Positions 2,478-59,890 of a DNA stretch of 64,000 nt are shown piece by piece. The position numbers and the translations under genes were made by a program. The notes below the pieces were generated by a model. The model was not told the origin of the DNA and made no database searches. It saw only the letters and a list, made by a program, of their open reading frames with translations. This DNA is from Candidatus Methylacidiphilales bacterium (lineage in GTDB: Bacteria; Verrucomicrobiota; Verrucomicrobiia; Methylacidiphilales; CAZTYG01): positions 124,001-188,000 of the forward strand of contig JANRJG010000009.1 in assembly GCA_033875315.1 (NCBI GenBank), read 5' to 3'. Each line of letters opens with the position of its first letter. The stretch's first letter is position 1.

Positions 2478-2482
2478 TTATT

Positions 2483-4897: not shown

Positions 4898-4987
4898 GGC
4901 GGAAGGTCTCAATTCCAAGTTTTTATAGATAACCAAGTAAAATACAAGCTTTAGTTGCCCATCGCCGGTTGGTCACAGCCCCCCAGC

Positions 4988-6875: not shown

Positions 6876-8662
6876 GGCTGGAGGCTGACCTGACGGTCCT
6901 CCTTGAGGGTGGCCTTGATCAGGAACAAGGTCGCCACTTGGTCCCCGTCGGGGGGTTCGCGGTTGATGATGTCGATTTTCTCAAACCAACCGGTGGCTTG
7001 GAGGCTGGAAACAAACGTGTTGAGGATGTCCCATTGACTGGCCTCGACGAAGCCGCGCAGGTTGATCTCGGTGCCGCGGGGGGCGACGTTGATGGAGGTT
7101 TCCGGAGCGGTGGGTTTGGCACCGGGAGCGAGAGGCTTGGTTCCGGGGGCCGGGACACGCGGACGGGAGGGGGCCGTGCCGCCGGGTGATCCGGAGCCAC
7201 CCTTGGTTGCGGCTTCCAGCGGCTGGTTGTTGAAGGTCATGTCCATCTGGGTCAACCAAAGTCCGGTGCTGGTCTGCGCGCACTGGCCGATCTGGACAAG
7301 CAAATCCGGCCAATAGTCCCGCTGCACAACCAACCGCTGCACGGCATCGACCCGTTGCTTGAAGGAGGCCAGTTCCTTGTCGGCTTTCTCAATCCGCGCG
7401 GCCAGCGTGGTTTTCTGATCGTAGTCCGATTGCAATTGCGCGGTTTCGGCGGAAACGGCGGAGGCCCGGAGGAAATTGACCCCGGCGATGGCCGCGAAAC
7501 AGGCCGCCCAGGCCAGCAGACCGACGACGAGATACGGCACCGCGCGGCGTTTTTCCCGCGCGACCTTGGCCGAGGAGGGCTCGAGGTTGATCTCGACCGG
7601 ACATTCACCGGCCATGCGGAGGGCCAGACCGACCAATTCCCCAAGTTGGAAGGCTTCGGCGGCGACCCGGTTGCGGTCGATATCCTGGGCGAGATTGACA
7701 TTGCGCAGGGGGTTGAAGTGTTCCACCGGAATATTCATCTTCTCCTTGAAGAAAAGATCGGCGAAAGGCATACAGGCCGAACCCCCGGCCAGATGGATCT
7801 TCTTGGGGGCACTCCCACCCTGCTGGTTGCGGTAGAAGCCAACCGACCGGTTCAACTCCGCATGGAGCTTGGAAAAAATGCTGCGGGCGATTTTGGAAAT
7901 ACGGGCGGCGGCGGCATCGTCCGGATCCTTGTAGGCCCCGCCGAGACCGACAAAGCCCTTGCCCTTTTTGAGGGTTTCGGCGGCGACATAGGGCTCCTGG
8001 AACTCGTTGGAGATGTTCTGGGAAATGAGGTGGCCACCGACGGGGATGACACGGATGAAGATGCGGGAACCCTCGATGAAGATCAGGTTGGTGTTTTTGG
8101 CCCCGATGTCGATGAGCAGGTGGCATTCATCGGGGACGCCGTAGTTGTAGTAAAACGCATTGATCAGGGCCAGGCCGGCCACATCGACGCCCGCCAGTTC
8201 GATTTTGCAGGCGCGGAAAGCCCCGGCGGCCTGCTCGACGATGTCCTGCTTGATGGCGACAATCAGGGCCTCATTTTCTTTGGCCCCAGTTCCACCCAGC
8301 ATTTGATAGTCCCAAACGACTTCGTTGATGGGAAAGGGCACGTTCTGTTGGGCCTCGAAGACGACCATTTTGTCGATCTCGGCCGCGGCGACCGGAGGGA
8401 GCTTGACGAAGCGGGTGAAGGCGAACTGGCCTGAAAGGCTGCAGTAGGCGGGGGCGCTGGGGAGTCCTTTTTCCCGGAGGAGGTTCTGCAGGGTTTCGAG
8501 GATGAAGGGGAACCGGTCCTGTTCCTTGTTCGGGTCAAGACCCATGTCCTTGATTCCGTAGCGCAGGAGAGTGAGATCGCCCGAGGCGCTGACCTGGAAG
8601 GCCGCGGCTTTGAGATTGCTCGACCCGAGGTCAATGGTGAGGATGCGTTGGGCGGATGCCAC
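6872..8662 (-). CDS. pilM: PilM-PilN-like fusion of the pilus system (Amuc_1101-like)
   Basis: A 596-residue protein in two parts. Residues 1-350 are an actin-like PilM/FtsA-type ATPase: 'TIDLGSSNLKAA' near the N-terminus is the phosphate-1 loop, 'LLIDIGAKNTNLIFI' near residue 188 the phosphate-2 loop, and 'IHLAGGSACMPFADLFF' near 290 the adenosine motif. After a membrane helix (about 377-397) comes a periplasmic PilN-like coiled coil and alpha/beta domain (400-596), interrupted by a Pro/Gly/Ala-rich insert around 500-525. PilM and PilN are separate, interacting proteins in most type IV pilus systems; here one chain carries both, as in Amuc_1101-type proteins. It is 30 nt downstream of the Amuc_1102-like gene and overlaps the next gene by 4 nt. 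Confidence 0.9.
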   Translation of the reverse strand: MASAQRILTIDLGSSNLKAAAFQVSASGDLTLLRYGIKDMGLDPNKEQDRFPFILETLQNLLREKGLPSAPAYCSLSGQFAFTRFVKLPPVAAAEIDKMVVFEAQQNVPFPINEVVWDYQMLGGTGAKENEALIVAIKQDIVEQAAGAFRACKIELAGVDVAGLALINAFYYNYGVPDECHLLIDIGAKNTNLIFIEGSRIFIRVIPVGGHLISQNISNEFQEPYVAAETLKKGKGFVGLGGAYKDPDDAAAARISKIARSIFSKLHAELNRSVGFYRNQQGGSAPKKIHLAGGSACMPFADLFFKEKMNIPVEHFNPLRNVNLAQDIDRNRVAAEAFQLGELVGLALRMAGECPVEINLEPSSAKVAREKRRAVPYLVVGLLAWAACFAAIAGVNFLRASAVSAETAQLQSDYDQKTTLAARIEKADKELASFKQRVDAVQRLVVQRDYWPDLLVQIGQCAQTSTGLWLTQMDMTFNNQPLEAATKGGSGSPGGTAPSRPRVPAPGTKPLAPGAKPTAPETSINVAPRGTEINLRGFVEASQWDILNTFVSSLQATGWFEKIDIINREPPDGDQVATLFLIKATLKEDRQVSLQP

Positions 8663-8692
8663 GGGATTGGGAAGGCTGGGGGTGGGAGGTGG

Positions 8693-9298
8693 TCAGCGGG
8701 TGGCTGCTTTGATCTGGTTGAACTTGCGTTGCTCCATGGGCCAGAAAGGGGAGTCCTTGAGGTTCACAAGCACGCCGGGCACCTGGGGGAAGGAGCTGAA
8801 CCAATTGGGTTGATCCTTGCGCAGATCAAGCCCCGGACCGTTGGAACGACCGTTTTCCATCAAATCGACGTGGACGTTGGCTTTCTTGATGCCGTCCTTG
8901 CCTGCGGATCCACCGTAGCGCGACACCGCGGCAGGGTGGAGGTAGGCCGTGGCCACGTGACCGTTGCCCTTGGGAACATTGATGAAGGTGACTTCGGAAG
9001 TCAGGATGATGGTCTCGTTCTTCTTCAGGGTGTCGACCATGTCCGTGTAAAACTTGACAGTGATTTCTTCGGTGAGCTCCTCGGTCGTATCAAATTTTGC
9101 CTCAATGACGTACCAATCCTCTCCCAGAACCCTGTTACCCGGCGTGGCCGTTTCCGCTTCCCGGGGTAGCGTTGCCTTCTCCAACTTGATGGAATTTTCC
9201 ACCAAACGGGCCGGCTGGCCTTGGGCCACCAGAGAAGTTATGGCAAGCAAAGAGGCGACCATTCCCACGATAAAAACGCGAGAGAAGTGAGCAATCAT
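8693..9298 (-). CDS. Amuc_1102-like secreted pilus-system protein
   Basis: A 201-residue protein with an N-terminal signal peptide (about residues 8-27, 'VFIVGMVASLLAITSLVAQG') and a beta-rich mature part that includes 'WYVIEAKFDTTEELTEEITVKFY', 'VTFINVPKGNGHVATAYLHP' and 'APGVLVNL'-type strands. It is the first gene of the pilus-like operon and corresponds by size, position and composition to Amuc_1102, an immunoglobulin-like/pilin-like protein. The likely location is the periplasm or cell surface. The start at 9298 is the first ATG; a second Met at 9262 lies inside the signal peptide and is less likely. Confidence 0.78.
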   Translation of the reverse strand: MIAHFSRVFIVGMVASLLAITSLVAQGQPARLVENSIKLEKATLPREAETATPGNRVLGEDWYVIEAKFDTTEELTEEITVKFYTDMVDTLKKNETIILTSEVTFINVPKGNGHVATAYLHPAAVSRYGGSAGKDGIKKANVHVDLMENGRSNGPGLDLRKDQPNWFSSFPQVPGVLVNLKDSPFWPMEQRKFNQIKAATR

Positions 9299-15862: not shown

Positions 15863-17017
15863 TCACACGATGGCCTTCTCACTCGCCTTGTCAAAAAATC
15901 GTGCCTTCTCCATGTCGGTGACCAAAGTGAGCCGCCTTCCAATAGCATCCTTGCCCATGGCCCGGCGGGAACGGGCAACGACAGGGTGCGAACCGGTATT
16001 GAAATTGTAATAGGTCTCCGGACCCATGGGTTCGATGACCTCTAATTGGGCCTGAAAGGCCCCTACAGGGGGGATCTCCTGGCCCTCGGCCAGCAAATCC
16101 AGATTCTCCGGGCGCAGACCAAGCACTACCGGCTTGTTTTCGTGCGTCGCCAACTTGCGTGCCAATTCCCCATCCAGGACAATTGCAAGAGCGGCACTTT
16201 CTGAGCCCGCCTTTTTTTGTTCATGGAAGCAAAGCGATCCTCCGTTTCGGGTGATGGTTCCCTGGATGAAATTCATAGCCGGACTACCGATGAAGCCGGC
16301 GACAAAAAGATTGGCCGGCTCATTGTAGATGGTGAGCGGCTCCGCGATTTGCTGGACCTTCCCCATTTTCATGACCACGATCCTGTCAGCCATCGTCATC
16401 GCCTCCACCTGGTCATGGGTGACGTAGATCATGGTGCTGCTCAAGGTGCGGTGGAGTTTGGAAATTTCGGTTCGCATCTCCACACGCATTTTGGCATCAA
16501 GGTTGGACAAGGGCTCGTCGAAGAGGAAAGCCTTGGGCTGCCGAACGATGGCCCGGCCGAGGGCCACGCGTTGCCGCTGGCCACCGGAAAGCGCCTTGGG
16601 CTTGCGCTCTAGAAGATTGTCAGGCTCAGAAAGTCCAAGGATGCGGGCAGCCTCGCTCACCCTGCGCTCGATCTCTGGACGGGGTGTCTTGCGCAGTTCC
16701 AAGCCGAAAGCCATGTTTTTGTAGACCGACATGTGAGGATAAAGTGCGTAATTCTGGAAGACCATGGCAATGTCCCTGTCCTTGGGCGGAACGTCATTGA
16801 TGACTTTGCCATCGATAAAAATGCGGCCTTTGCTGATTTCCTCCAGGCCGGCAATCATGCGCAGGGTGGTGGTTTTGCCGCAACCAGAAGGACCCACTAG
16901 AACCATGAATTCACGGTCCTCGATTTCAAAGTGGGCGTCGTCCACGGCGACTTTCTCCGTACGGTTTTTCTCCCCGGGATATATCTTATAGAGATGTTCA
17001 ATAATGACTTTGGCCAT
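15863..17017 (-). CDS. ugpC: sugar ABC transporter ATPase (UgpC/MsmK/MalK type)
   Basis: A 384-residue ATPase that powers CUT1-type sugar importers. Visible motifs are Walker A GPSGCGKTT (about 42-50), Q-loop VFQNYALYPHM (about 86), signature LSGGQRQR (about 144), Walker B AFLFDEP (about 162) and H-loop THDQ (about 198). A C-terminal TOBE-like regulatory region (about 240-370) has 'VVLGLRPENL'. ATPases of this type often serve several transporters; here it lies 1.9 kb away from, and opposite to, the binding protein and permease genes, so it is the obvious partner but may be shared. No gene for it is duplicated in the window. Confidence 0.95.
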   Translation of the reverse strand: MAKVIIEHLYKIYPGEKNRTEKVAVDDAHFEIEDREFMVLVGPSGCGKTTTLRMIAGLEEISKGRIFIDGKVINDVPPKDRDIAMVFQNYALYPHMSVYKNMAFGLELRKTPRPEIERRVSEAARILGLSEPDNLLERKPKALSGGQRQRVALGRAIVRQPKAFLFDEPLSNLDAKMRVEMRTEISKLHRTLSSTMIYVTHDQVEAMTMADRIVVMKMGKVQQIAEPLTIYNEPANLFVAGFIGSPAMNFIQGTITRNGGSLCFHEQKKAGSESAALAIVLDGELARKLATHENKPVVLGLRPENLDLLAEGQEIPPVGAFQAQLEVIEPMGPETYYNFNTGSHPVVARSRRAMGKDAIGRRLTLVTDMEKARFFDKASEKAIV

Positions 17018-18923: not shown

Positions 18924-19865
18924 ATGCTCGCCCTTTTGCTATCCATAGTAAAACGATTCGATCCGAGTCTCGGCGTTTGGGCCTTGTCGGCCATGGCGTA
19001 CACACTTGTTGGTTGCTCTCAAGTTTCAGAATCCCCCCAAACTTCATTGTCCATACTTCAAGAGGGTTGGGAATGCTTCCGCTTGGGGGAATTCGAACGT
19101 GCCTTGGAAAAATTCCACCTAGTCGAATCCCGGTCTGCCGCTGACTCGCCCGAGTATTTGGAGAGCTTGATGGGGCAGGCCTCTCTCTGGAATACCCGCC
19201 AAGATAAACGGGATCCCCGGCGTGCCGAGAAGCTCTACCTGAAGATTGTCAAACTGGCCCCTGGAAGTCAGGCCGCCTCATGGGCATCCCTCGACTTAGT
19301 TCGCATCATGCACCTGACCCGGGCAGACCAGCCCCTCGACTACGTTTCACTCGCCAAAAACTACCGCCAGGTTGCGCTGAAATACCCCGGCACCTCTGCC
19401 GCGGAAGAGGCGCTCTTGCAGGCCATGGCCTTGGAAGAAATCCAAGCCGACCGCGGTAAACTTCTGAATCTCATCAAGGAGTACCAGGATTTTTTGACCA
19501 CCCACCCAGAGAGCGGATACAAGGGTGCCGTTTATGGCGCGATGGCCCGGCTGTATGACTCGCTGCGCCGTTATGAGGAAAAACTCACCTCGCTCCTCCA
19601 CGCTTTGGAATTTCAGGACATCGACAAACTCAATCCCAACGAGCAATACGTCTGGATCTATTGGACAATTGCCGTGACAGCAGAGTTTGATGTCGGAAAT
19701 TTCCCCGTAGCCCGCCGGTTTTACAACAAATTGCTGGCCGAATATCCCTCGGACTTGTTGGTATTCCGAGCCCGTGAGGCCCTCTCCCGGATGGACCGTG
19801 TGGAATCGGACCTGAAACTGGGCCGAGCCATTCCAGAATCCCAGCCATTGGGGAGCTTGAGATGA
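18924..19865 (+). CDS. TPR-containing lipoprotein of the sugar-transport operon
   Basis: A 313-residue protein with a hydrophobic N-terminus ending in a lipobox-like LVGC (about residues 28-31), then helical tetratricopeptide-type repeats (about 45-285; for example 'AEKLYLKIVKLAPGSQAASWASL' and 'ARRFYNKLLAEYPSDLLVFRA', the second resembling Tol-Pal YbgF repeats). It is the first gene of the operon and overlaps the binding-protein gene by ATGA (19862-19865). It may hold the solute-binding protein or an oligosaccharide at the membrane. No such subunit is part of a standard CUT1 importer. The exact role is unknown. Confidence 0.78.
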   Translation: MLALLLSIVKRFDPSLGVWALSAMAYTLVGCSQVSESPQTSLSILQEGWECFRLGEFERALEKFHLVESRSAADSPEYLESLMGQASLWNTRQDKRDPRRAEKLYLKIVKLAPGSQAASWASLDLVRIMHLTRADQPLDYVSLAKNYRQVALKYPGTSAAEEALLQAMALEEIQADRGKLLNLIKEYQDFLTTHPESGYKGAVYGAMARLYDSLRRYEEKLTSLLHALEFQDIDKLNPNEQYVWIYWTIAVTAEFDVGNFPVARRFYNKLLAEYPSDLLVFRAREALSRMDRVESDLKLGRAIPESQPLGSLR

Positions 19866-21565
19866 AAATACTCCAAGCCAAGGGAAGCCTGGCCTTGTTT
19901 GTACTTCTGGTGACCTATGCCGCCTGTGTCTTGGTCGTCCACACCCGTACCCGGGAGGACGGAAACCCGGGACTCACCACTATTCGCATCGGACATTGGC
20001 AGTTGGAAAGCGGATTTCGTGAAGGCATCGATTATGCCGCGCGCGAATACCAAAAAATTCATCCCCACGTGCATATTGTGCAGGAAGCCATTCCCGAATC
20101 GACCTGGAAACAGTGGGTCAGCACCCAGCTGATGGGGGGCACCGCCTCCGATATCCTGGAAATTGGCAACATGGAGCCAAACCTCGTCACCAGTTTCTAT
20201 GTTCGCTACTTCCTTCCCATAAGCCAGGCGGTGGGCAGACCCAATCCCTACAATTCCGGCACCGATCTCGAAAAAGTCCCCCTGGTCAACACATTCAAGG
20301 ACGGCCTTCGCAGCTCCTATGTGGGTGAAACCCAGGAGTTCATGAACATCCCGCTTTCGCTGATCGGGGTCCGCATCTTCTACAACCGTACGCTTCTGGA
20401 AAAACTGACCGGACGATCCACCCCACCCTCAAACTACCGTGAATTCCTCAAAACCTGTGCTTTGATCCGGTCCCAGACCATTCCCTCCGGGCCAGGCAAA
20501 GGCGATCCCTACATCCCCATCGCCGGTTCGGCCTGGCATTACGGCCGCTGGAGGGAATCCATGTTTGAGCCCATCACCTCGATGGCGATGGTCGACAACG
20601 ATCTCAACCGTGATGGGAGACTTTCCAAGGAGGAGATGTACCTTGGCTTCCAACTGGGACGCTTGTCCATGAAGCATCCCGCTTACCAGGCCATGCTCGG
20701 ATTGATTCACGAAGTGACCGCGTATTTCCAAACCGGCTACACCGGGCTTTCCCGTGACGAAGCCCTTTTTCTCTTTGCCCAGGAACGGGCGGTATTCATC
20801 CCCACTGGGTCCTACGAAGTCATGAGCCTGAAGACCCAGGCCGAAGGAAAATTTGAAATCGGTGTGGCCAATTTTCCCTACCCCGACAAAAGCGATCCAG
20901 AATTCGGCTCCGTCATCGAGGGACCCCGTTACGAACTGGTGGACGGCCAGGCCCAATTCGGGATCACGCGGGGATCGAAACATGCCGATACCGCTCTCGA
21001 TTTCCTGCTGTTCATGGCCAGCCGGAAACAGAACGAGAAGATCAATGCCCGTTTTGGCTGGATCCCGATCATCAAAGGCGCGGAGTCCACCCCCGAATTG
21101 CAGGCTTTCAACCCGAACCTCAACGGGGTCATTGCCGCATTCGACCCTTCACTTGGGCCTGAAACCGCCATCCGCTGGTTACAAATGATCGCCCTCTATC
21201 AAGTCAATCAGATTTCTTCCGAGGAATTGTCCAATCAATACGGGGATTTTTACCAAAAAGCCGGAGCGGCGGACCTGCAGGAGTTTTTGCGCAATGCCCG
21301 TCGGGGTTATGCACGCGACGTCCAAATGCTCGTCGGACAGAGAGCCCTGGCCGGCTCCCAACCACAGGACAGCAGGGATTGGATCCGTTATCGCAAGATC
21401 CTCACCGACCGCCTGATCGGTGCCGAAGTTTACCTGCGCAAAATTCAGGCACTCTCCGGCAAGGACGCTGAACATCCTCCGATTTACCCCTATCGATACC
21501 AACCTGAGGCCCTGGAAAAGATCCGCTCTCAATTCTACAAGGCACCGAAGGGCGGAAATTCATGA
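19862..21565 (+). CDS. ABC transporter sugar-binding protein (family 1)
   Basis: A 567-residue extracellular solute-binding protein of family 1. An N-terminal hydrophobic segment (about 8-27) is followed by the mature fold beginning 'IRIGHWQLESGFREGIDYAAREYQKIHP'. Typical hinge-region signatures include 'ILEIGNMEPNLV', 'EFMNIPLSLIGVRIFYNRTLLEK' and 'ERAVFIPTGSYEV'. It also has a 'DNDLNRDGRLSKEEMYLG' EF-hand-like loop near residue 240. It is longer than the usual 400-450 residues owing to C-terminal extension. The TYAAC near residue 21 is a poor lipobox, so a membrane anchor or normal cleavage are both possible. It overlaps both neighbours by 4 nt. Confidence 0.9.
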   Translation: MKILQAKGSLALFVLLVTYAACVLVVHTRTREDGNPGLTTIRIGHWQLESGFREGIDYAAREYQKIHPHVHIVQEAIPESTWKQWVSTQLMGGTASDILEIGNMEPNLVTSFYVRYFLPISQAVGRPNPYNSGTDLEKVPLVNTFKDGLRSSYVGETQEFMNIPLSLIGVRIFYNRTLLEKLTGRSTPPSNYREFLKTCALIRSQTIPSGPGKGDPYIPIAGSAWHYGRWRESMFEPITSMAMVDNDLNRDGRLSKEEMYLGFQLGRLSMKHPAYQAMLGLIHEVTAYFQTGYTGLSRDEALFLFAQERAVFIPTGSYEVMSLKTQAEGKFEIGVANFPYPDKSDPEFGSVIEGPRYELVDGQAQFGITRGSKHADTALDFLLFMASRKQNEKINARFGWIPIIKGAESTPELQAFNPNLNGVIAAFDPSLGPETAIRWLQMIALYQVNQISSEELSNQYGDFYQKAGAADLQEFLRNARRGYARDVQMLVGQRALAGSQPQDSRDWIRYRKILTDRLIGAEVYLRKIQALSGKDAEHPPIYPYRYQPEALEKIRSQFYKAPKGGNS

Positions 21566-23559
21566 GCCGTCAAATTCCCTGGAGACAGGTCCATCACCAC
21601 TGGGAAATCTATTTCCTGGGTCTTCCCACATTCATACTGGTGGCCCTCTTCCAGTACTACCCGGCAGCCAGCGGCATTTTCCACAGTTTTTACCGTTGGA
21701 ACGGCTCCGATATCTCCGAATTCGTGGGACTAGCCAACTACACGGATCTACTCGGATCGACGGCCTTTTGGCAGTCTTTCAATGTGGCCCTGACTTTGGG
21801 CTTGTGGAATGTCGCCAAAATGATTCCGGCAATTGCCGTGGCCGTCTGGATCCATCGATGCCGCAGCACGAAATGGCAATTCGTCTATCGCCTGCTTTTC
21901 GTCATCCCAATGGTCATTCCCACTCTGGTGGTGGCTCTCATTTGGAGATCTTTTTTCTTCGAGGCCATCTCCGGGTATCTCAACCAATTCCTCAATATCA
22001 CCGGTCTTTTCACCCTGCTATGCCGTCTGGACCAATGGCTGGCATGGGGCGGTATCTTTGTCCAAGGCGCCAAGCCCGCCTGGTTGGGCGACCCCAGACT
22101 CATCCTCACAGCCTGTATCGTCTGGGGATTTCCATGGGTGGGTTCCTTCGCCGTCCTCACCCATCTGGCGAAGTTGCAGAACATTCCCAAAGAGCTCTAT
22201 GAGGCCGGTGAAATCGATGGCACCAATTGGTGGAACAAGTTCACCCAGATCGAATTGCCCCTGATGATGGGTTCGATCTACCTCATGCTGGTTTTTGTCA
22301 TCATTGGAACTATCAAGGATGCCGGCATGATCCTGGCCCTGGCGGGGCTGGAAGGCGGCCCTGGCGGGGTCGTCACCGTCCCGGCGCTCTTCATGCTCCG
22401 CAAGGCTTTCGTGGGCCAGGAAATGGGCGCGGCCTGCGCGGTTGGGATCATCCTCACCTTGGTGGTCATGATGCTGCAAAAGATCAGTGAATTCGCCCTG
22501 CAGGAACCTTCCCTCCGGGGGCGGTTCCACTCCATTCTCCCGTGGTTCTGTGGTCTCTTGGGAATCTTCCTCGTCGCCAGCAGTTTTTCACTCCTTCCCG
22601 GCTTGTGTCTTCTCGGACTGGCCCTGCCCTGGGGGGTGTTCGCCCGATTTATCCAACGGATGGGTTTGTTCAATGGCACACTCCTCCATGTTCAGCCAGT
22701 GCCTGCGCTAAATAACAAACCAATAATCAAATCCAGGCTGTCGATGGACTTGCCCCTGCGTTCATTCAAACACGCCGCCATCTGGTGCATCTTGATTTTT
22801 GCCTTCCTGCCCCTTTACCTGATGCTCGTCGTCAGTATCAAGGACAACAGCCAGTTCTATGCCGCTCCGGCCACCCTCACCTCCCCGGCGCACTGGGAAA
22901 ACTGGCAGTTTGCCTTCGAACTGATCATGCCCAGTGTGGCCAACAGTCTCTACATCGCGCTGAGCAGCACCGGACTTGCCCTTTTCGCCGGATTGGGCGC
23001 GGCCTACTTCTTTGCCCGCAACCGCCTGCCCCTGTCCTCCTTTTTTTGGAACGCTCTCCTGATCATGATGATGATGCCGGCCATCGCCAACCTAGCTCCC
23101 CTCTTCCGCCTCCTCGCCGACTTGAACCTGCTCAATACCATGACTGCCCTGATTCTTGTCGGTTCCGCCGGTGGCCAGGCCTTTGCCATTTTTGTCCTGC
23201 GCAACTTTGTCTCCGAAATTCCCCGCGACCTCTTTGAGGCCGCCGAAATCGACGGGGCCGGGCACTTCCAGCAAATGCGTTATGTGGTGCTGCCCTTGTG
23301 CGGTCCGATCCTCGGAACAGTCGGGGTCATGCATTTCATTTCCGAGTGGAACGAATTTATTATGCCCCTGATCGTCATGCGCGACTCCGCCAATCTCCCG
23401 GTCATGGTCCAGTTGCTCCGTTTGGCAGGCGAGTATGTCAAATTCTGGGGACCACTCATGGCCGGCTATGCCATTGCCAGTTTGCCGGTCATCTTCCTGT
23501 TTTCCTTCAGCATGAAATTGTTCACCCGAGGACTGACGGAAGGAGCCGTTAAGGGTTGA
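21562..23559 (+). CDS. fused sugar ABC permease (MalF-like + MalG-like in one chain)
   Basis: A 665-residue membrane protein. Residues 1-330 form a MalF/UgpA-like permease with an EAA loop 'ELYEAGEIDGTNWWNKFTQIELPLM' split here as EAGEIDGTNWW (about 213-223). Residues 395-665 form a MalG/UgpE-like permease with a second EAA loop, EAAEIDGAGHF (about 558-568). Extra hydrophobic segments (about 320-375) link the halves, which keeps both halves in the membrane correctly. CUT1 importers normally use two separate permease genes; here one frame supplies both. There is no stop or frameshift at the junction. The start overlaps the binding-protein stop (ATGA). Confidence 0.92.
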   Translation: MSRQIPWRQVHHHWEIYFLGLPTFILVALFQYYPAASGIFHSFYRWNGSDISEFVGLANYTDLLGSTAFWQSFNVALTLGLWNVAKMIPAIAVAVWIHRCRSTKWQFVYRLLFVIPMVIPTLVVALIWRSFFFEAISGYLNQFLNITGLFTLLCRLDQWLAWGGIFVQGAKPAWLGDPRLILTACIVWGFPWVGSFAVLTHLAKLQNIPKELYEAGEIDGTNWWNKFTQIELPLMMGSIYLMLVFVIIGTIKDAGMILALAGLEGGPGGVVTVPALFMLRKAFVGQEMGAACAVGIILTLVVMMLQKISEFALQEPSLRGRFHSILPWFCGLLGIFLVASSFSLLPGLCLLGLALPWGVFARFIQRMGLFNGTLLHVQPVPALNNKPIIKSRLSMDLPLRSFKHAAIWCILIFAFLPLYLMLVVSIKDNSQFYAAPATLTSPAHWENWQFAFELIMPSVANSLYIALSSTGLALFAGLGAAYFFARNRLPLSSFFWNALLIMMMMPAIANLAPLFRLLADLNLLNTMTALILVGSAGGQAFAIFVLRNFVSEIPRDLFEAAEIDGAGHFQQMRYVVLPLCGPILGTVGVMHFISEWNEFIMPLIVMRDSANLPVMVQLLRLAGEYVKFWGPLMAGYAIASLPVIFLFSFSMKLFTRGLTEGAVKG

Positions 23560-23578: not shown

Positions 23579-25558
23579 GTGAAACCCAAAACAGCCACTC
23601 CTTTCCAAACCCGGGATTCTTCCCTGTTCTGGAGCCGCAAAGGCGAATCCCTCCTCATCGAACCCTGGGGCCGCAACAGTGTGCGCATCCGGGCCACCCG
23701 CAACGCCTCGTTCTCGGGAAACAATTGGGCGCTGCTGCCCCAAAAAAACACCTCGTCGGCCGCTCCAATCATCCGCATCGATGCAAACCAGGCGGCATGG
23801 CGTCATGGCTCCATCCGTGTCGTCTGCACCGCTGAGGGTCAGTTGCGCCTGGAAAACACCCGCTCACTTGACCTGCTTTTGCAGGAACACAAACCCCGTG
23901 CTTACCGTTCGAAATCCGGCGGGCTATACAACTTGGAAACCACCTTCCAGGCATTCGAAGACGAACGATTTTACGGCCTGGGCCAGCATCCCCACGGGTT
24001 TCTCAACCAAAAAGGATGCAGTCTGGCACTGGAACAGCGGAACACCGAGATCAACATCCCCTTTCTGATCTCCAGCAGAGGGTACGGCTTCCTTTGGAAC
24101 CAACCCGGGGTAGGACGTGTCGACCTCGGACGCAATGGCACACGCTGGAACTCGCACTCCTCACCGGAACTGGATCTTTGGATCACGGTCGAGCCTTCCT
24201 ATGCCGGTATTCTGAAAAACTATGCCTCCGCCACCGGCGGATCACCCCCCTTCCCCACCTACGCCAGCGGCTTCTGGCAGTGCAAACTGCGCTACCGAAA
24301 CCAGGAAGAACTGCTATCTGTGGCGCGCGAACACAAACGCCGGGGACTGCCTCTCTCGGTCATCGTCGTGGATTACTTTCACTGGACCGCCATGGGCGAC
24401 TGGAAATTTGATCCCAAGGACTGGCCCGACCCGGGAGCGATGGTGCGCGAACTGCGGGGCCTGGGCATCGAACTCATGGTCTCAGTCTGGCCCACCGTCA
24501 ATGCCCTGAGCGAAAACTTTCCCGCATTGGAGAAGGACGGGCTGCTGGTCGGGACCGAACGGGGGCTGCCCGTGGTCACCCACTTCATCGACACCCCCCA
24601 AGAAGGCCGCGCCTACCTCCATCACTACGACGCCACCCATCCCGAAGCCCGCAAGTTTCTCTGGAACCGCATCCGGGAAAACTATCTCAAGTCTGGAATC
24701 CGGGTTTTTTGGCTGGATGCCTGTGAACCCGAACTCAACCCCTTCGACCACGACAACCTGCGCTACCACTTGGGCAATGGGGAAACCGTGGGTAGTTGGT
24801 ACCCATTAGCCCATGCACAAACCTTTTACGACGGTTTGAAAGCGTCGGGCGAAAAGGAAATACTCACACTTTGCCGATCGGCTTGGGCCGGCAGCCAGCG
24901 GTATGGCGCGGCCGTCTGGTCTGGTGACATTTCTTCAACATTCGACTCCCTGCAAAAGCAGATCAAAGCCGGTTTGAACATGGCCCTGAGCGGCATTCCC
25001 TGGTGGACCACCGACATCGGTGGTTTTCACGGCGGCGATCCCGAAAGCCCGGAGTTCCGCGAACTCATCGTGCGCTGGTTCCAGTATGGTGTGTTCTGCC
25101 CCATATTTCGGCTACATGGAGCACGCCTGCCCTCGTCGCACACCGCAGGTGGACCGAATGAAGTCTGGTCTTTCGGCGAAAAAGCCTACCAGGCCATCCG
25201 TCCCCTGCTCTTCCTCCGGGAAAAAATGAGACCCTACATCCACCGGCATATGAAACGGGCCGAAAAAGGAATGCCCCTCATGAGGCCGGTCTTTGTCGAC
25301 CACCAGCACGACCCCAAGGCTCATGATGTCGAGGACGCCTTCATGTTCGGTCCAGACCTGATGATTGCGCCGGTCACTGAAGCCGGGGCCCTCCAACGAA
25401 CCGTCTACCTGCCCGCAGGCACCGAATGGCAGGAGGCTTGGACCGGCCAAAAACATCCGGGAGGCAGAACCATCCTGGTCGCCGCCCCTTTGGAAATCAT
25501 TCCCGTCCTGGTCAAAGCAGGATCACCCTGTGCGAAGTGGTTCAAAAGCAAGCCCTAA
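23579..25558 (+). CDS. GH31 glycosidase (alpha-xylosidase/alpha-glucosidase type)
   Basis: A 659-residue GH31 enzyme starting at GTG, 19 nt after the permease stop. The N-terminal beta domain (about 1-200) contains 'YGLGQHPHG'. The barrel has 'VIVVDYFHW', the nucleophile region 'FWLDACEPE' (Asp about 380) and the acid/base region 'WSGDISSTF' (Asp about 450), followed by 'PWWTTDIGGFHGGDPE'. A DACEPE motif is common in the alpha-xylosidase side of the family, but substrate cannot be fixed from sequence. No signal peptide, so it likely acts on imported oligosaccharides as the last gene of the transport operon. Confidence 0.92.
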   Translation: MKPKTATPFQTRDSSLFWSRKGESLLIEPWGRNSVRIRATRNASFSGNNWALLPQKNTSSAAPIIRIDANQAAWRHGSIRVVCTAEGQLRLENTRSLDLLLQEHKPRAYRSKSGGLYNLETTFQAFEDERFYGLGQHPHGFLNQKGCSLALEQRNTEINIPFLISSRGYGFLWNQPGVGRVDLGRNGTRWNSHSSPELDLWITVEPSYAGILKNYASATGGSPPFPTYASGFWQCKLRYRNQEELLSVAREHKRRGLPLSVIVVDYFHWTAMGDWKFDPKDWPDPGAMVRELRGLGIELMVSVWPTVNALSENFPALEKDGLLVGTERGLPVVTHFIDTPQEGRAYLHHYDATHPEARKFLWNRIRENYLKSGIRVFWLDACEPELNPFDHDNLRYHLGNGETVGSWYPLAHAQTFYDGLKASGEKEILTLCRSAWAGSQRYGAAVWSGDISSTFDSLQKQIKAGLNMALSGIPWWTTDIGGFHGGDPESPEFRELIVRWFQYGVFCPIFRLHGARLPSSHTAGGPNEVWSFGEKAYQAIRPLLFLREKMRPYIHRHMKRAEKGMPLMRPVFVDHQHDPKAHDVEDAFMFGPDLMIAPVTEAGALQRTVYLPAGTEWQEAWTGQKHPGGRTILVAAPLEIIPVLVKAGSPCAKWFKSKP

Positions 25559-28428: not shown

Positions 28429-29217
28429 TCATCGGGGTATTTGCATCCGATAATCCGGCGCCTTGCCGAGGTTTTCATATTTTTTCCATAGCTTCAGAAA
28501 TTCTCCGGAAAGTTGCAGCGGAGCAGGCGGGTCTTCATCGTAAACATACTCCATCGCGCCCAGCTCGCTTTCTTCTGCAATCGGAAACCCAGTCTTGACG
28601 GAAATCCACACTTTGGTCGGAACTTTGGGCTTTTGACGGAACTTGAGTGCGATCGCTTCCAGATCGGAATACTTCGTTCCCTCCGGCATCATCGTGGGAT
28701 CAGGTGCCCGCTCCGTCCACTCGTAAAGAAAGCAGTCCTCTTTTCCGCTCTTTTGCACCTTCACAAAGTGGGCGGCGTCGATCCAGGAAATCCCTTTGAA
28801 ATCAGAGGCGGCATAATTGGGCAATTCCGCATCCTTGAAAGTTTCACCCATGTAAATCGCATCACTCCCCGGCTTTTGGTAGAGCATCACCCCATTGATC
28901 ACCCATGTTTGGCTTTTGCTCTCATCATTCCAAATTGTGGTTTCATTTAACATTTTGTTGGATTTGACCACCCGGATGCTGACAGGAACCAGCTGGGACT
29001 TCTTTCCGTTGGGATCGTTCTTTTCATCAGTTTGGGCAGCCGACTGCGGGCTGCGTTGCTTCATCCGACATTTGATGGTCCAGGCGCTTGGATCAACTGC
29101 CCGCTTGACGAATGGCGGCACGGGTCGGATCTCAGGCAATACTTCGCCAGCCACCTGGCCTTGCAATTGGAACAGCAAGCAACCTAAAACTAGCGGAAAA
29201 ATGAATGAGTTACTCAT
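28429..29217 (-). CDS. secreted protein downstream of Verru_Chthon cassette, function unknown
   Basis: About 262 residues from the ATG at 29217, overlapping the stop of cassette gene A by 8 nt, so it is translated with it; the longer frame would use a TTG at 29229. A signal peptide (about 4-25) ends near 'QVAGEV'. The mature part is hydrophilic with 'TTIWNDESKSQTWVINGVMLYQKPG', 'SWIDAAHFVKVQKSGKEDCFLYEW' and 'KVWISVKTGFPIAEESELGAMEYVYDEDPP' regions, resembling outer-membrane or lipid-carrier-type beta folds that test 'conversion' of a salt. I cannot assign a family. It looks like a fifth member of the cassette here. Confidence 0.7.
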   Translation of the reverse strand: MSNSFIFPLVLGCLLFQLQGQVAGEVLPEIRPVPPFVKRAVDPSAWTIKCRMKQRSPQSAAQTDEKNDPNGKKSQLVPVSIRVVKSNKMLNETTIWNDESKSQTWVINGVMLYQKPGSDAIYMGETFKDAELPNYAASDFKGISWIDAAHFVKVQKSGKEDCFLYEWTERAPDPTMMPEGTKYSDLEAIALKFRQKPKVPTKVWISVKTGFPIAEESELGAMEYVYDEDPPAPLQLSGEFLKLWKKYENLGKAPDYRMQIPR

Positions 29218-32200
29218 AAACAGCCTCAATTTGTTGATCTATGATTTCCCCGGTAAACCGGTCAATCGCCACATGCAGCCAATAATGCTTTTCCCCTTCC
29301 ACCACAAACCCGGCCGCCAGATCCGTGGCCTTTGATTGATAACGTCCCGATTGAACAATGAGGTCAATAAACAAATTCCAAGTTCGGGTGGTCCCGGATT
29401 CGGCCAGCGCGCGCACCACACCCTCCCTTTCGGTCTTGATGTTTCCCTGAGTGCCAGAGGGAGAGATTTCATTCCAAAGCTTGGTCACCAATTCGGACCG
29501 GTTCAGAAGAGGCCCTTTTCCAGAAGCCGAGCTTTGGGTGAAATCCACCAGTTTGCCTGCCAGTGTCGCCGCTTGAGAAGCGCTGATTGACGAACTCTGG
29601 TCATCCTTGTAGGCGGCACCCGCGAGAATAGCCTCGACCACGGGCTTTTGGCGTGTGTTCAGATTGAATCTTCCAGCACTCAATTCCCCATCTTCGATGG
29701 AGAAACAATCCAAAAGTGCCGCATCCGCACTCCTGGGTGAGAAGAAATCGAGGCTCTTGAAGGGCTGGTCGCGGAATACATAACCCAACTCCCCCACGCT
29801 CCGGAATGGGCGGTTGAGAATGATGGGCTTGCTTGCATTATTGCCGGTGATCAAGGCCCGGCCGTTGGCGTTCGAAGCCAGAGCTGCATCCCCCCAGCGG
29901 ATGACTCCATCAGGATCACGGTAAGCCACCCGCGAATGCCCCCCGGGGTCACCACTTGCGCGGTTCTCCGCAAGAGTGGCATAATTGGAATTTAATGCGG
30001 CATTAATCGAATTTGTTCCAGAGGTATTGTTGTTGTAAATGAATAGGGACGAGCCGCTGACTCCAGTGGCATCGAAACTGTTTTCCCGGAGTTGATCTCC
30101 GACATAGCCCGTGGCTGCATAATTATCGACAAAGAGATTGCCCAAATTGGTATGGTAACCCCAACTTCCATCAGGTTGAGCGACGTTAAGCACGTTCATG
30201 CTGGTTCCAAATCGATCGGTGCGGGGATCTACGCGCAGGTAATAAAAATAAGTGCCATTGGCATTCACGTTCTCTTTTTGTTGGGCATATATGTTGCTAA
30301 AGGTGTGGAAGGGATAGGAACGATAAACCCCGTCTTTCTTATAATAAAATTGAAATGAAACACCTTGGGAGTACGGTTGCAAATTGGCATAACCCAGTGG
30401 CCCGCCACTGGCGTCGTAGATCGTTTTTCCCACGTTTATTCCGATACCCTGGGTGCCCGCCAGAGGCGGCGAAGTGGCATGATAATTCAATCCATTGTTG
30501 GTTGATGTATTCGTTGTATTGAGGAGGGTGGCCCCGGAAAATCCTCCTGGACTCAAATTGACTTCCAACTGTCCGCACGTGCTCAAATCCGTGCCCGTGC
30601 CGGGCTGCGAACCAATTTGCGGTCCAAACCAACGGTAGACCAAGATATTGGCGCTTCCTGAGCCAGTGATCTTGATCTTATCGGGTATCCATGAGGAATC
30701 CGCAGTTTGGTTGATGTTCTGGTAGGGATTCCATAATTCGAAATTATACCAGCCGTAAACTGTTCTGTTGGCCGTGTCATGGCTCAGTGTATAATAAACC
30801 CGCACGGGATAAGGCAGGTTTTCCGAACCACCAACCATGGTTTGGTTGTTGAAATTAATTCCAGTTGGAAAACTATCCGGGTCCGATTGGTCGATGATGT
30901 TGGCCCCGATTTGCATGATCTGAAAGTAAGTATTAAAAGAATAGGCCCGGTTGTAGCTGGCCGAACCCGGCTCATAATCCTGCCAATAATACCATGCCCG
31001 GCCGGAATCTCTGCCCAAAGATCCAATGTTGATGGCCGCCTGAAGGGTTTCAAAGAAATCGGGATCACGTGTCGAAGGGACATCCTTGAGATATTTGATA
31101 TTAGAAACTACAGAAGTCTCATCCGGCGAAGTGTAATTCCAAGAACCGCTGGCGGGCACCCAGACCAAACCATAGTACTTCTTGATATTGGTTGCGGTTC
31201 CATTTCCGTTGTAACGTGCGTCTGCCGGTCCCAGGCTGGCACTCGGCCCGTCTGATGTCAGCCAAACCAGTGTGCTGAGGGGAAATCGCTTGGTCATAAC
31301 CGGTTTGCCTCCGGTGCTTTTCCTCACCTTGTTGAAATCTGGATTGAAATTATTTTCATTATTGGTTGTGTTGTAGGTGTAAGGATTTCCCACATAGGAG
31401 GAGTAAGTGGTGATAAGGTTCCAGAAGTCCGAGGGAAGTGTAGAGTTGGAAAATTGGATTCTCGGACGTTCCACGCTGCCCAAAACGGGTGGCGCATAAG
31501 TGGGGGCGTTTTTTTCACGACTGAAAGTGCCCAGATATTGTAAAGCGGCAGCACTCAATACATCAGTGTTGGCTTTCTGGTAATTGATCAAATCCTGGCG
31601 ACTGGTGAAAATCTGATCATTGGGGTAGGGATTGAGGAACGTATTGGTTGGCGTGGCATAGAGCCAGACAGGATTCGCAGATGCCGACGGACTGCGCCAT
31701 TGAAGAAATTCGTTGATCTTGGACAGGGAAGCCGTAAAGCCGGGAATCCGCGAGAGGTCCGCCCCGGTCATTCGCCCCCTCCGTGAGTTATCACCGGGCG
31801 ACAACCGGTTGCCGGCCACATTGATGTCCAGCAATCCCCCCTCATCATGGATTGCGTAGGCATAGCGTCCGATGGCAAATAATGGATTTGTCGGAGCCGC
31901 ATCCGTCAGCTGGGCCAATGTGGGAGCGGTTCCATTCGCCGTATCCACCGGACCCTGCCGGGTGATGAGAACCCAGTCAGGACTCTCCCAATCGGGCGGC
32001 ACGGACGAATCCCCCAGCAAGTAAGATTTATTCCAGCGATTGGCCGCAATTGAACGGCCGTTGTTGGAAGGAGCAGAGGCGCTGCATCCGGACAAAGCCC
32101 TTACGGGGCTGCTGATCGTGGAGTTGTATCCCGTTCCAGACCATAAAGGAACACCCGCTTTGCTGATTTTGACCAAATTGACATGGGAACTGGCTCCTAC

Positions 32201-32512
32201 TTTGGAGGGCATCAGATGCCGGTTGGATTTTGGCAGGTACATGTTGACGTTGCTTTGAGTGTCGACTTCCGAACCGGCTACGATCTCTTTTTTCAGGTCG
32301 CTCACAAGAGTCTGCAATGAAGTCTGGGCCAGCCATTCGGCCCTGGCTTGGCCGGCGCTGGAAAAGGCGATCCGGCGGCCGAGTGTGGCCTTGGATAGAA
32401 AGGCCAAAACCAGAATGCTCATCAACACCAACGCAGCCAGCGTCAGGATCAAGGCCGCCCCTCTCTGTCGAACACTATCCCAGGGGCGGAAAATGGATGG
32501 AATGATTTTCAT
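29210..32512 (-). CDS. Verru_Chthon cassette protein A
   Basis: A 1100-residue protein. The N-terminus has a short basic stretch, then 'RGAALILTLAALVLMSILVLAFLSKA' (about 17-42), a pseudopilin-like helix, and 'AQARAEWLAQTSLQTLVSDLKKEI' region typical of PilX/GspK-like minor pseudopilins. The long remainder is beta-rich and rich in Asn/Ser/Tyr/Gly and looks extracellular. Size, N-terminus and position after three short prepilin-like genes match the 'Verru_Chthon cassette protein A' family defined in verrucomicrobial genomes. It might be a tip or adhesive subunit of a pseudopilus assembled through a type II secretion/pilus apparatus such as the one at 105-9298; that link is inference. Confidence 0.87.
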   Translation of the reverse strand: MKIIPSIFRPWDSVRQRGAALILTLAALVLMSILVLAFLSKATLGRRIAFSSAGQARAEWLAQTSLQTLVSDLKKEIVAGSEVDTQSNVNMYLPKSNRHLMPSKVGASSHVNLVKISKAGVPLWSGTGYNSTISSPVRALSGCSASAPSNNGRSIAANRWNKSYLLGDSSVPPDWESPDWVLITRQGPVDTANGTAPTLAQLTDAAPTNPLFAIGRYAYAIHDEGGLLDINVAGNRLSPGDNSRRGRMTGADLSRIPGFTASLSKINEFLQWRSPSASANPVWLYATPTNTFLNPYPNDQIFTSRQDLINYQKANTDVLSAAALQYLGTFSREKNAPTYAPPVLGSVERPRIQFSNSTLPSDFWNLITTYSSYVGNPYTYNTTNNENNFNPDFNKVRKSTGGKPVMTKRFPLSTLVWLTSDGPSASLGPADARYNGNGTATNIKKYYGLVWVPASGSWNYTSPDETSVVSNIKYLKDVPSTRDPDFFETLQAAINIGSLGRDSGRAWYYWQDYEPGSASYNRAYSFNTYFQIMQIGANIIDQSDPDSFPTGINFNNQTMVGGSENLPYPVRVYYTLSHDTANRTVYGWYNFELWNPYQNINQTADSSWIPDKIKITGSGSANILVYRWFGPQIGSQPGTGTDLSTCGQLEVNLSPGGFSGATLLNTTNTSTNNGLNYHATSPPLAGTQGIGINVGKTIYDASGGPLGYANLQPYSQGVSFQFYYKKDGVYRSYPFHTFSNIYAQQKENVNANGTYFYYLRVDPRTDRFGTSMNVLNVAQPDGSWGYHTNLGNLFVDNYAATGYVGDQLRENSFDATGVSGSSLFIYNNNTSGTNSINAALNSNYATLAENRASGDPGGHSRVAYRDPDGVIRWGDAALASNANGRALITGNNASKPIILNRPFRSVGELGYVFRDQPFKSLDFFSPRSADAALLDCFSIEDGELSAGRFNLNTRQKPVVEAILAGAAYKDDQSSSISASQAATLAGKLVDFTQSSASGKGPLLNRSELVTKLWNEISPSGTQGNIKTEREGVVRALAESGTTRTWNLFIDLIVQSGRYQSKATDLAAGFVVEGEKHYWLHVAIDRFTGEIIDQQIEAVYE

Positions 32513-32513
32513 G

Positions 32514-33380
32514 TTAGTATAGGGAAAATCTCCGTTCCATCACCCGGATGCGTCCCACTGCTTTGATCGGGATGGATGTGGCAGAATTCAGGGCCGCGAC
32601 GTCATTGATCTTGGCAGCCCAAACAGACAAAGTTGAAGTATTGTCCGCCGCATCTGGAAATTGTTTTTCCAGATCGGCCAGTTGCACCGACGGGTTATTG
32701 AGCAGTTTGCGTGATTCACCATCGAGCGCGGCCATGGTGATGCAAAGGGTGCCCACTTTTTCTTTCCAATCCCTCCCAGTGGCGGGAAAAGAGGTGAGGA
32801 TCGTTCCCGGCGTCGTGTCCTTGGCCGAAAGATAGGAAATTTCCATACGGAAGATGGCCGCCGACAGCAGATCGAAACTGGCATCCATCGGTTGCACGGG
32901 CGCTGCCAACAGGGCGGTCGGCTCGATGAACACAAGCCCGGTTCCTCCAGCCGACGACCAAGTTGTTCCCTGCGAACAGCGCAACAGACGGTAGGGGTTG
33001 CTGCTGGTCGGATCCCCCACCCGGTAGAAAAGCTGCGAGATCCCCCTCGGACCCGAGGAAACCGCAAGGGTGGAAGGGACCGAACTGTAAAAAGAAAAGG
33101 AGTCATTCTGCTTTCCGGATACTTTTTGAAAATAGAGCGAAACATCCTCACGTCTCAGACGCGCACTCAAATCCATCCCGATCCGGTCGAGTGCCTGCCG
33201 CATTTCCGCATGGGCGTCCAAGTCCTTGTTGCTCTGGGCCAGGGCACTCGAGGTGGCTTGGAGGGCCTGGGCAATGATGACCCCTAAGATGGCGAAAACG
33301 GCCATGGCCGCCATCAACTCAATCATCGTAAACGCACGCTCCAGTGTGCGAGGGATTTTGGAAGGGCCCCGGTGTTTCAT
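32514..33380 (-). CDS. Verru_Chthon cassette protein C (prepilin-like)
   Basis: About 288 residues from the ATG at 33380; the frame extends to a TTG two codons earlier. The prepilin signal 'ERA-FTMIELMAAMAVFAILG' has Ala instead of Gly at the peptidase site, with the key Glu at +5 present. A helix (about 18-40) and a mainly beta C-terminal part follow, like PilW/GspJ pseudopilins. It begins 2 nt after gene B's stop and ends 1 nt before gene A's start, so the genes are tightly coupled. Confidence 0.85.
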   Translation of the reverse strand: MKHRGPSKIPRTLERAFTMIELMAAMAVFAILGVIIAQALQATSSALAQSNKDLDAHAEMRQALDRIGMDLSARLRREDVSLYFQKVSGKQNDSFSFYSSVPSTLAVSSGPRGISQLFYRVGDPTSSNPYRLLRCSQGTTWSSAGGTGLVFIEPTALLAAPVQPMDASFDLLSAAIFRMEISYLSAKDTTPGTILTSFPATGRDWKEKVGTLCITMAALDGESRKLLNNPSVQLADLEKQFPDAADNTSTLSVWAAKINDVAALNSATSIPIKAVGRIRVMERRFSLY

Positions 33381-33382
33381 TT

Positions 33383-33910
33383 TCAATTCCGGGGAATGGC
33401 CACCACGGTCTCAACCGACCTCAAGGGGGCTGTCGCTGCCACTTTGAAAGGAGAAGAGATCCGGATGTGATAAAAGACCGGATCACCCGCCCCGACTGCC
33501 CAGGCCTGACGGGTGACTTCCACCTTGTATCTCCCGAGAGGGTTCGTCGGCGGGGTGAGCGTTTCCAAATTTTCCCCTAGAAGCAAAGTGGCACTCGCGG
33601 CGGTTTGCGCACCCGCGGTCACGGACGCACTGTCATTCACCGCTGGCATTTGATAGAGTACGGTCTTGGCCGTCTGCGGGGACAACCTCAAGTCGGCGAT
33701 CAGGGCGTTGACTAGGTTGACGGCAATGCTTTCCTCCCTGGATTCTTTGTTCGATTGCAGTCCGACGGGCAACAAACCGACCAAAAGGACCAAGGCAAAA
33801 GCAGTAATACCCAGAGCCAGCGTGACCTCAATGAGAGAAAACCCGGGTGAAGAACCCGAGCCGTCCCGAATCCACGCCATCAAACAACGATTGTCGATTC
33901 GCTGAACCAT
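33383..33910 (-). CDS. Verru_Chthon cassette protein B (prepilin-like)
   Basis: A 175-residue pseudopilin-like protein with prepilin peptidase motif 'SPG-FSLIEVTLALGITAFALVLLV' (about 22-45), then a helix with 'ESIAVNLVNALIADLRLSP' and a short beta domain; it resembles PilV/GspI. The leader before the cleavage site is unusually long (23 residues), so Met11 (33880) may be the real start. It lies between genes D and C of the cassette, 18 nt downstream of D. Confidence 0.84.
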   Translation of the reverse strand: MVQRIDNRCLMAWIRDGSGSSPGFSLIEVTLALGITAFALVLLVGLLPVGLQSNKESREESIAVNLVNALIADLRLSPQTAKTVLYQMPAVNDSASVTAGAQTAASATLLLGENLETLTPPTNPLGRYKVEVTRQAWAVGAGDPVFYHIRISSPFKVAATAPLRSVETVVAIPRN

Positions 33911-33928
33911 GGTCTTGAACCTGGGCGA

Positions 33929-34552
33929 TCAGCGGAAGACTTGGACATTTCCGGTCAAGCCACTGATCTGAATCACAGCCACATTGGTGTTCGAACTGTT
34001 GGAGTAAGCGGGGGCCAGCCCGATCTGAATCCAACGGGAGAGTCCGTCGACCAAAGCTGAGGCGCTTCCATCAGGGGCGAACTTGATCACATAGGGGTAA
34101 TTCATCAGGCTGCCCGCAACTTGACGCTGGAGTGTGGGGATTCGACCCGTACCGCTGGTGGCGGCATCCAGCACGTCACCACCTGAGGCCGCCCCTGTGA
34201 CAGAAACGGAATTTTTGATGCTGACCCTGTTCAGAACTACCGGTTTTCCCAATGGCAATAGATTGGCCGCAGAGGTGTCGTCCTCGGCGGACTTGGAGAG
34301 CATCGAAGTCAACTGTATCCCACCCCCGGTTCCGGCAGTGTTCAGACCGACATAGACATAGGTATTGTTGGCCATGGCCAACGACCGGGCATCATCGAGT
34401 TGGGCGGTCAGGTTGCTGATCGACTGGCTAAAACCGCTGCTCTTGGAGAGAGAACTCAGGGCAGGAACGGCCAGACTGACCAGCAGCGCCATGATCGATA
34501 CCACGATTAAAAGCTCGATCAGAGTGAATCCTTGGGACTTTCGCCAATTCAT
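33929..34552 (-). CDS. Verru_Chthon cassette protein D (prepilin-like)
   Basis: About 207 residues if translated from the ATG at 34552, which gives the short leader MNWRKSQG before FTLIELLIVVSIMALLVSLAV, a classical GspH/FimT-type prepilin start. Longer starts at 34573 (ATG) or 34615 (TTG) are possible but would place the start inside or beside an operator-like palindrome. The C-terminal part ends 'ISGLTGNVQVFR', as in GspH-like pseudopilins. It is the first gene of the D-B-C-A cassette. Confidence 0.84.
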   Translation of the reverse strand: MNWRKSQGFTLIELLIVVSIMALLVSLAVPALSSLSKSSGFSQSISNLTAQLDDARSLAMANNTYVYVGLNTAGTGGGIQLTSMLSKSAEDDTSAANLLPLGKPVVLNRVSIKNSVSVTGAASGGDVLDAATSGTGRIPTLQRQVAGSLMNYPYVIKFAPDGSASALVDGLSRWIQIGLAPAYSNSSNTNVAVIQISGLTGNVQVFR

Positions 34553-34596
34553 AAATTGCCTACACCTCTTCATGAAATTTGTTTTTGAACCACTTC

Positions 34597-34614
34597 TGAC
34601 TACCTGTGTAGTCA
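34597..34614. promoter_or_regulatory. perfect palindromic operator candidate of the cassette
   Basis: TGACTAC-CTGT-GTAGTCA is an exact 7-bp inverted repeat with a 4-nt spacer, 45 nt before the preferred start of cassette gene D and about 10 nt downstream of its predicted transcription start. That is a position where a repressor would block the cassette. Confidence 0.5.
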
Positions 34615-34629
34615 AGCATCACTAATATC

Positions 34630-59846: not shown

Positions 59847-59890
59847 CTTGGTTGATTTCAAAACAGGGACCTCTTATTGTCAATAGCAGT

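Follow-up and report, generated by a model that had tools for sequence, protein, structure and literature searches.

Importers of the CUT1 family have a textbook heterodimeric membrane domain, and permeases fused into one chain are already known from other type I importers, for example, FbpB. The closest described systems, SugABC, MalFGK2 and AlgM1M2S (PDB 7cad/8ja7, 2r6g and 4tqu), resemble each half of the permease analyzed here in sequence and fold and share with it the EAA loops, a binding protein of the SBP_bac_1 family and an ATPase of the MalK/UgpC type (in our case, encoded in the same genome), but their permeases consist of two separate chains, whereas the one described here is a single chain with a variable membrane linker. 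Two permease chains are customary in, but do not strictly define, the CUT1 family. FbpB, PhnU2 and ThiP, in turn, carry both membrane halves in one chain, as here, and FbpB matches our permease in the fold of the whole chain, but these proteins belong to other sequence families and have other substrates. The FbpB chain comprises 490 residues in structure 9j4r, compared with 665 amino acids here, so that the extra linker helices are probably absent from it. In the open-licence full texts searched, we found no description of a sugar permease of the CUT1 family with both halves in a single chain, and the excerpts of PMC3654945 and PMC2246101 describe none. The single-chain CUT1 permease is a new form of sugar importer, not a new principle.

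The window, that is, the whole stretch of 64,000 nucleotides analyzed from the genome of a Candidatus Methylacidiphilales bacterium, encodes this permease in one 665-codon frame of the ORF list, with zero internal stops (Table 1). Pfam assigns it two BPD_transp_1 domains (82.8 bits; cut-off, 26.4), and the genome-wide scan placed both in a single open frame, each exceeding the cut-off, at C9:145832-146476 and C9:146990-147535. The two halves are separated by about 90 residues that include two extra hydrophobic helices. Toward its end, the linker contains an in-frame ATG (Met394), but none of the seven other aligned fusions has a counterpart of it, which makes a separate start of the second permease improbable. 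The permease gene and the binding-protein gene upstream share four bases (ATGA), the ATG of the former running into the TGA of the latter, and the binding-protein and TPR genes share four bases as well; the GH31 glycosidase gene likely belongs to the same operon. An alpha-L-fucosidase-family protein and the UgpC-type ATPase are encoded upstream of the importer genes on the opposite strand. We read the locus, with a probability of about 0.88, as encoding the whole membrane domain of an importer of the CUT1 type in one chain, with a docking UgpC ATPase, a binding protein, a TPR helper and a single origin of the fusion.

Table 1. Features of the importer locus, in positions of the window
Feature	Position	Strand	Basis
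UgpC/MalK-type ATPase	15863..17017	-	NCBIfam match over cut-off; only OB_MalK protein found in genome
Exported TPR protein, lipobox LVGC, first gene of operon	18924..19865	+	ORF, domain scans, profile
Sugar-binding protein (SBP_bac_1), 567 aa, with N-terminal hydrophobic helix (residues 2-32) and helical C-terminal extension	19862..21565	+	Pfam, alignment, fold model
EF-hand loop DLNRDGRLSKEE, binding-protein residues 247-258	20600..20635	+	Invariant residues, predicted helix-loop-helix
Single-chain CUT1-type permease, 665 aa	21562..23559	+	ORF, Pfam, homologous loci, fold model
MalF/SugA-like half, residues 1-308	21562..22485	+	Fold match to SugA 7cad_A
First EAA coupling loop, residues 214-234 (EAGEIDG...IELPL)	22201..22263	+	Sequence; model helices 210-219 and 223-236; invariant alignment columns
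Linker, residues 309-400, hypervariable	22486..22761	+	Alignment, lengths, identity
Linker helix 1, residues 321-339	22522..22578	+	Fold model
Linker helix 2 region, residues 344-366, motif end here LALPW	22591..22659	+	Fold model, motif pattern
MalG/SugB-like half, residues 401-665	22762..23556	+	Fold match to MalG 2r6g_G; sequence search of solved structures
Second EAA coupling loop, residues 559-579 (EAAEIDG...VVLPL)	23236..23298	+	Sequence; model helices 555-563 and 568-606
GH31 glycosidase	23579..25558	+	19 bases 3' of permease frame; domain scan

Confidence in the fold model of the permease, which was built on 33 fusions, is medium (mean pLDDT 72.5, pTM 0.71), with pLDDT below 50 at residues 370-388, 607-625 and 657-665. 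The modeled helices agree with a division into six, two and six transmembrane segments. SugA (7cad_A; Z 19.3, 2.8 A, 273 residues) and MalF are the structural counterparts of the first half, MalG (2r6g_G; Z 15.8, 2.5 A, 251 residues) and SugB those of the second, and the chain as a whole, over model residues 28-657, aligns with Thermus thermophilus FbpB (9j4r_A; Z 19.8, rmsd 4.9, 457 residues). An even number of linker helices puts both EAA loops on the same side of the membrane, as in the SugA, MalF, MalG, SugB and FbpB structures. The density of lysine and arginine is higher in the loops assigned to the inside in 49 of 51 sequences, the count not favoring the assigned sides in the other two. 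The modeled topology is thus compatible with a cytoplasmic location of both EAA loops, a point that the preliminary description had proposed to check; its claim of one uninterrupted frame with two CUT1 permeases, each with an EAA loop, is borne out, and the extra membrane segments that it placed between the halves exist in this protein as the two linker helices, but are missing in some relatives.

Fused homologs were sought in three sets of genomes. Fusions were checked as ORFs because the open-frame length from the genome search is unreliable in this respect: it is 611 in G021, where a stop separates two ORFs. The set from the bacterium's own class comprised 384 genomes, of which 37 gave a match with an E-value of 1e-50 or lower and eight encode the fusion as a single ORF (G000, G024, G086, G122, G155, G215, G223 and G296). 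In a draw of 387 genomes from the phylum, 65 matched at the threshold of 1e-60, 15 of them with one full-length match, and six more contain both halves in one frame; of these six, G476 and G488 were confirmed as single ORFs, whereas the status of G495, G534, G540 and G562 was assigned from frame lengths equal to those of the named loci L113, L119, L118 and L120, with agreement in coordinates, too, for G495. This brings the fusion to 21 of the 387 genomes, including the four assigned by length. From the named-genome collection, 60 related loci were returned, and homologs spanning both halves, which the preliminary description had suggested searching for, make up the majority: 50 are single-ORF fusions (L085-L132, L137 and L138, with L108 cut at query residue 592), nine are split (L133, L134, L136 and L139-L144), and one is cut at a contig end (L135). 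Two fused loci, LR76 (L097) and LW23 (L101), come from records whose titles lack the 'MAG' label.

By record title, the loci returned from the named collection belong to Verrucomicrobia (including Spartobacteria, Chthoniobacterales and Opitutia), Lentisphaerae, Kiritimatiellae and Planctomycetota including Phycisphaerales. They also occur in single MAGs labeled Spirochaetes, Nitrospiraceae, Coatesbacteria and Hydrogenedentota, labels that may reflect binning errors or transfer. The single-chain family resides mostly in Verrucomicrobiota, Lentisphaerota and Kiritimatiellota. Fused and split forms can coexist, given that G024 harbors a fused copy (L065) and a split paralog (L074). Split relatives from Verrucomicrobiota and Lentisphaerota (for example, L074, L133 and L139) have the same gene order, with the binding protein followed by the permeases, often encode a related TPR protein, and show about 39-54% identity to each half of the fused permease; they differ in having two permease genes and in the rarity of the EF-hand pattern in their binding proteins.

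For phylogenetic analysis, the alignments of the two halves were concatenated into 79 rows, 51 of them fused systems, with that of the window among them, and 28 split ones, leaving out L065-L071, which duplicate named loci, and the truncated L135. All 51 fused rows fall on one side of a branch with 100/100 support, apart from the 28 split pairs; the same division was recovered (SH-aLRT 100) in a second tree, under a mixture model, from which ten distant or long split rows had been removed. The fusion of the two permease halves had a single origin, and no reversion to split genes was found inside the fused clade of the 79-row tree.

In contrast to the halves, with mean pairwise identities of 0.70 and 0.72, the linker has a mean identity of 0.198 (50 loci, 1225 pairs) and, measured between residues 308 and 400 of the window protein, spans 47 to 367 residues in the named relatives. 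The helix numbers, which are estimates from a Kyte-Doolittle window, vary widely. The helix pair is missing in seven of the 51 fusions (named loci L085, L099, L105, L109, L111, L113 and L116, the last with one marginal alanine-rich stretch); most other linkers fit a two-helix hairpin, of which the hydropathy cut-off often caught just one helix; four to five hydrophobic segments exceed the cut-off in L118, L120, L121 and L123-L127; and eight and seven do so in L119 and L131, respectively, in stretches long enough for about 12. On the tree, the helix-free linkers require two changes and do not form one clade, yet such a single clade receives a p-AU of 0.095, so that a single change is compatible with the data and the helices were lost once or twice. 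In nearly all helix-bearing linkers, a hydrophobic run ends in P[YWFS], a pattern that is unmatched in L126 and L127 and also catches one helix-free linker, L105; this shared end motif suggests that the hairpin is of common descent.

The same motif, at the end of a linker helix, could be taken as the mark of a functional module, a regulator or a docking site, as could the linkers with about 5 to 8 or more hydrophobic segments, one of them weakly repetitive internally (L119, 27% over 78 residues; no convincing internal duplication was found in L131). We consider such a module unlikely: a helix pair that seven fusions lack and a linker of such low identity argue against it, as does the absence of any Pfam family over the cut-off in the six linkers scanned, a result by which assignment of the linker to a known domain was also rejected. 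Judged from these comparisons, the linker is almost free to vary and behaves as a spacer would. Poor linker conservation, together with the low model confidence at residues 370-388, would also suit a cut in the linker after synthesis, which would leave an ordinary heterodimer as the working unit; this we regard as improbable, given that inspection of the linkers by eye revealed no shared cleavage motif and that the fused clade includes zero returns to split genes.

The fused permeases for iron, phosphonate and thiamine are single chains as well, and the whole-chain fold match to FbpB and a weak PhnU2 score (50.3 bits) could be held to place the permease among them. Such membership is very improbable: the NCBIfam cut-off for PhnU2 is 593.25 bits (593 when rounded), no ThiP match is listed in the NCBIfam scan, the relatives by sequence are sugar permeases, and the permease is paired with a sugar-type binding protein and has a UgpC-type ATPase, over its cut-off, encoded nearby. 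The best NCBIfam matches are GlcU, MalG and UgpE for the second half and UgpA, MalF and GlcT for the first, all far under the equivalog cut-offs, which indicates that the permease is related to, yet not identical with, any named one; the nearest solved relatives by sequence are SugB (E 3.3e-32), MalG (1.9e-27) and AlgM1 (1.6e-16), along with AlgM2 and SugA. The same genome encodes a second fused permease, of the molybdate/phosphonate/thiamine-permease type, on contig C41. The preliminary description had stressed the rarity, among carbohydrate importers, of a fixed heterodimer made as one product; permease fusion in itself is already familiar from other type I importers, FbpB and the C41 protein being examples. 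That a sequencing error or a lost stop, such as might lie at 22600-22750, joined ordinary malF and malG genes has a negligible probability: the nearest outgroup systems are indeed adjacent split genes, and in G021 (L072) the halves lie in one frame with one stop codon between them, but 50 single-frame loci from other assemblies, of named genomes of several NCBI phyla, the 21 fusion-carrying genomes of the phylum draw and the end motif common to nearly all helix-bearing linkers exclude it.

The binding protein (SBP_bac_1, 50.8 bits; Pfam cut-off, 26) yielded a fold model with pLDDT 84.7, the best fold matches of which are binders of chitin oligosaccharides and raffinose. Its EF-hand loop of 12 residues lies inside a predicted helix-loop-helix (224-245/256-264), with D247, D251, G252 and E258 invariant and N249 present in at least 90% of 20 aligned rows. 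The EF-hand pattern occurs in the binding proteins of 44 of the 50 named fused loci; among the other six, no binding protein was detected at L126, where the contig starts, and L127, only a fragment is present at L115 and L124, and the pattern is lacking at L107 and L119, as it is at the truncated L135. By comparison, two of the 17 split loci with a detected binding protein show it (L142 and L143). The cluster G binders AlgQ1/AlgQ2 and Smon0123 are likewise large and have an EF-hand-like calcium site, as described for AlgQ2 and Smon0123 in excerpts of PMC5717064 and PMC12710961; our protein differs from them in that its loop has 12 residues and sits between two predicted helices and that its best fold matches are the chitin-oligosaccharide and raffinose binders, and AlgQ is absent among the matches listed in the sequence and fold searches, in which other sugar binders come first. 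In AlgQ2, the calcium site contacts the transporter (PMC5717064, excerpt), and by this analogy, involvement of the EF-hand loop in docking to the permease is plausible.

At 44 of the 50 named fused loci, a TPR protein is encoded ahead of the binding protein. These same proteins went into the profile, which drew on 51 fused loci, seven of them duplicates; it also gives weak matches (28-92 bits) to proteins encoded upstream of the binding protein at 14 of 22 split loci; BLASTP missed these homologs as an effect of sensitivity. The TPR protein was accordingly rejected as a hallmark of the fusion: its weak relatives at split loci imply that it predates the fusion and belongs to a wider importer lineage. 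The preliminary description had taken the single chain together with a TPR lipoprotein as the sign of a distinct importer subtype; the distinct lineage stands, but the TPR protein does not delimit it. By sequence it is not a lipoprotein throughout: of 46 TPR proteins, 43 have a hydrophobic N-terminus, but only 24 show the strict lipobox pattern. Not every fusion has this operon, as there is no detected binding-protein or TPR gene in the 5.8 kb upstream of the fusion in L127.

The UgpC/MalK-type ATPase of the window is likely the energizing partner of the fused permease: at L090, L099, L113, L116 and L153, a homolog is encoded close to the fusion and in the same orientation, directly downstream of it in the latter four. 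The ATPase gene of the window lies on the other strand, and its product may energize further importers. At other loci, the nine proteins scanned in the neighborhood of the fusion include an alpha-amylase, a GH39-like protein and one of beta-helix/GH141-like type, together with regulators and unrelated proteins; with neighbors varying in this way among loci, the substrate probably differs among members of the family.

Under the single-chain reading, the MalF/SugA-like and MalG/SugB-like halves would pair up as a pseudo-heterodimer, both EAA loops facing the cytoplasm and offering docking sites to two copies of the UgpC/MalK-type ATPase. The membrane-anchored binding protein, with its calcium-type EF-hand loop presumably loaded with calcium, would hand over an oligosaccharide, and the TPR protein would act as an exported helper. 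A single fusion event, in a forerunner of these importers among PVC-type bacteria, would stand at the outset; the first linker most likely had two helices, which kept the topology even, and would later have drifted, lost its helices once or twice, and expanded. The gain could lie in a fixed 1:1 ratio of the halves and in their assembly. In MalE-MalFGK2, the receptor shuttles freely. A more speculative and rather doubtful extension is that the PVC importer combines a single-chain permease with an expandable linker, a permanently anchored, calcium-loaded receptor and an exported TPR partner, the receptor staying docked on one preassembled channel.

The conversion of a heterodimeric sugar importer into a single chain is moderately surprising, the more so with an expandable linker and an EF-hand receptor as its companion. 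A CUT1 permease that became a single chain once, with linkers of no, two or many helices, is a ready-made experiment on subunit assembly and on the evolution of membrane linkers, and allows each half to be mutated within a fixed pair, showing which half does what. A sugar-capture route unstudied in the literature searched is suggested, for environmental and rumen PVC bacteria, by the EF-hand binding protein and the TPR partner.

In two loci with related fused permeases, L119 and L131, the linkers that join the permease halves comprise 360-367 residues and contain 7-8 or more hydrophobic segments; the L119 linker is also weakly repetitive internally, at 27% across 78 residues. In a third such locus, L127, neither a binding-protein nor a TPR gene was detected in the 5.8 kb upstream of the fused permease.

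Among the split relatives, the permease halves of L072 (positions 7172-9004, genome G021) share one frame and are separated by a single stop codon. Four split loci of the Lentisphaerota type (L133, L139, L142 and L143) encode an insert of approximately 150-160 residues in the first permease, near residue 70 of the window permease, and their binding protein contains an insert as well.

Features of the fused relatives and of other window regions.
Feature	Location	Strand	Remark
Linker between permease halves	L119:8976-10076		many hydrophobic segments
Linker between permease halves	L131:8892-9971		many hydrophobic segments
Two large secretin-like ORFs in tandem	window 105-4936	minus	reading of translations
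Pilin-like genes	window 29210-34615		reading of translations
Alpha-mannosidase-like, GH2-like and GH43-like frames	within window 34763-63299		resemblance in ORF translations
Second GH31-like protein	window 57489-59861		resemblance in ORF translations

Judging from the ORF translations, window 34763-63299 appears to be a carbohydrate-related island. Another contig of the same genome, C41, encodes a further fused type I permease (L008:370-2124, 584 aa), which is molybdate/PhnU2/ThiP-like; an ATPase and a match to a binding protein lie a short distance away on that contig.
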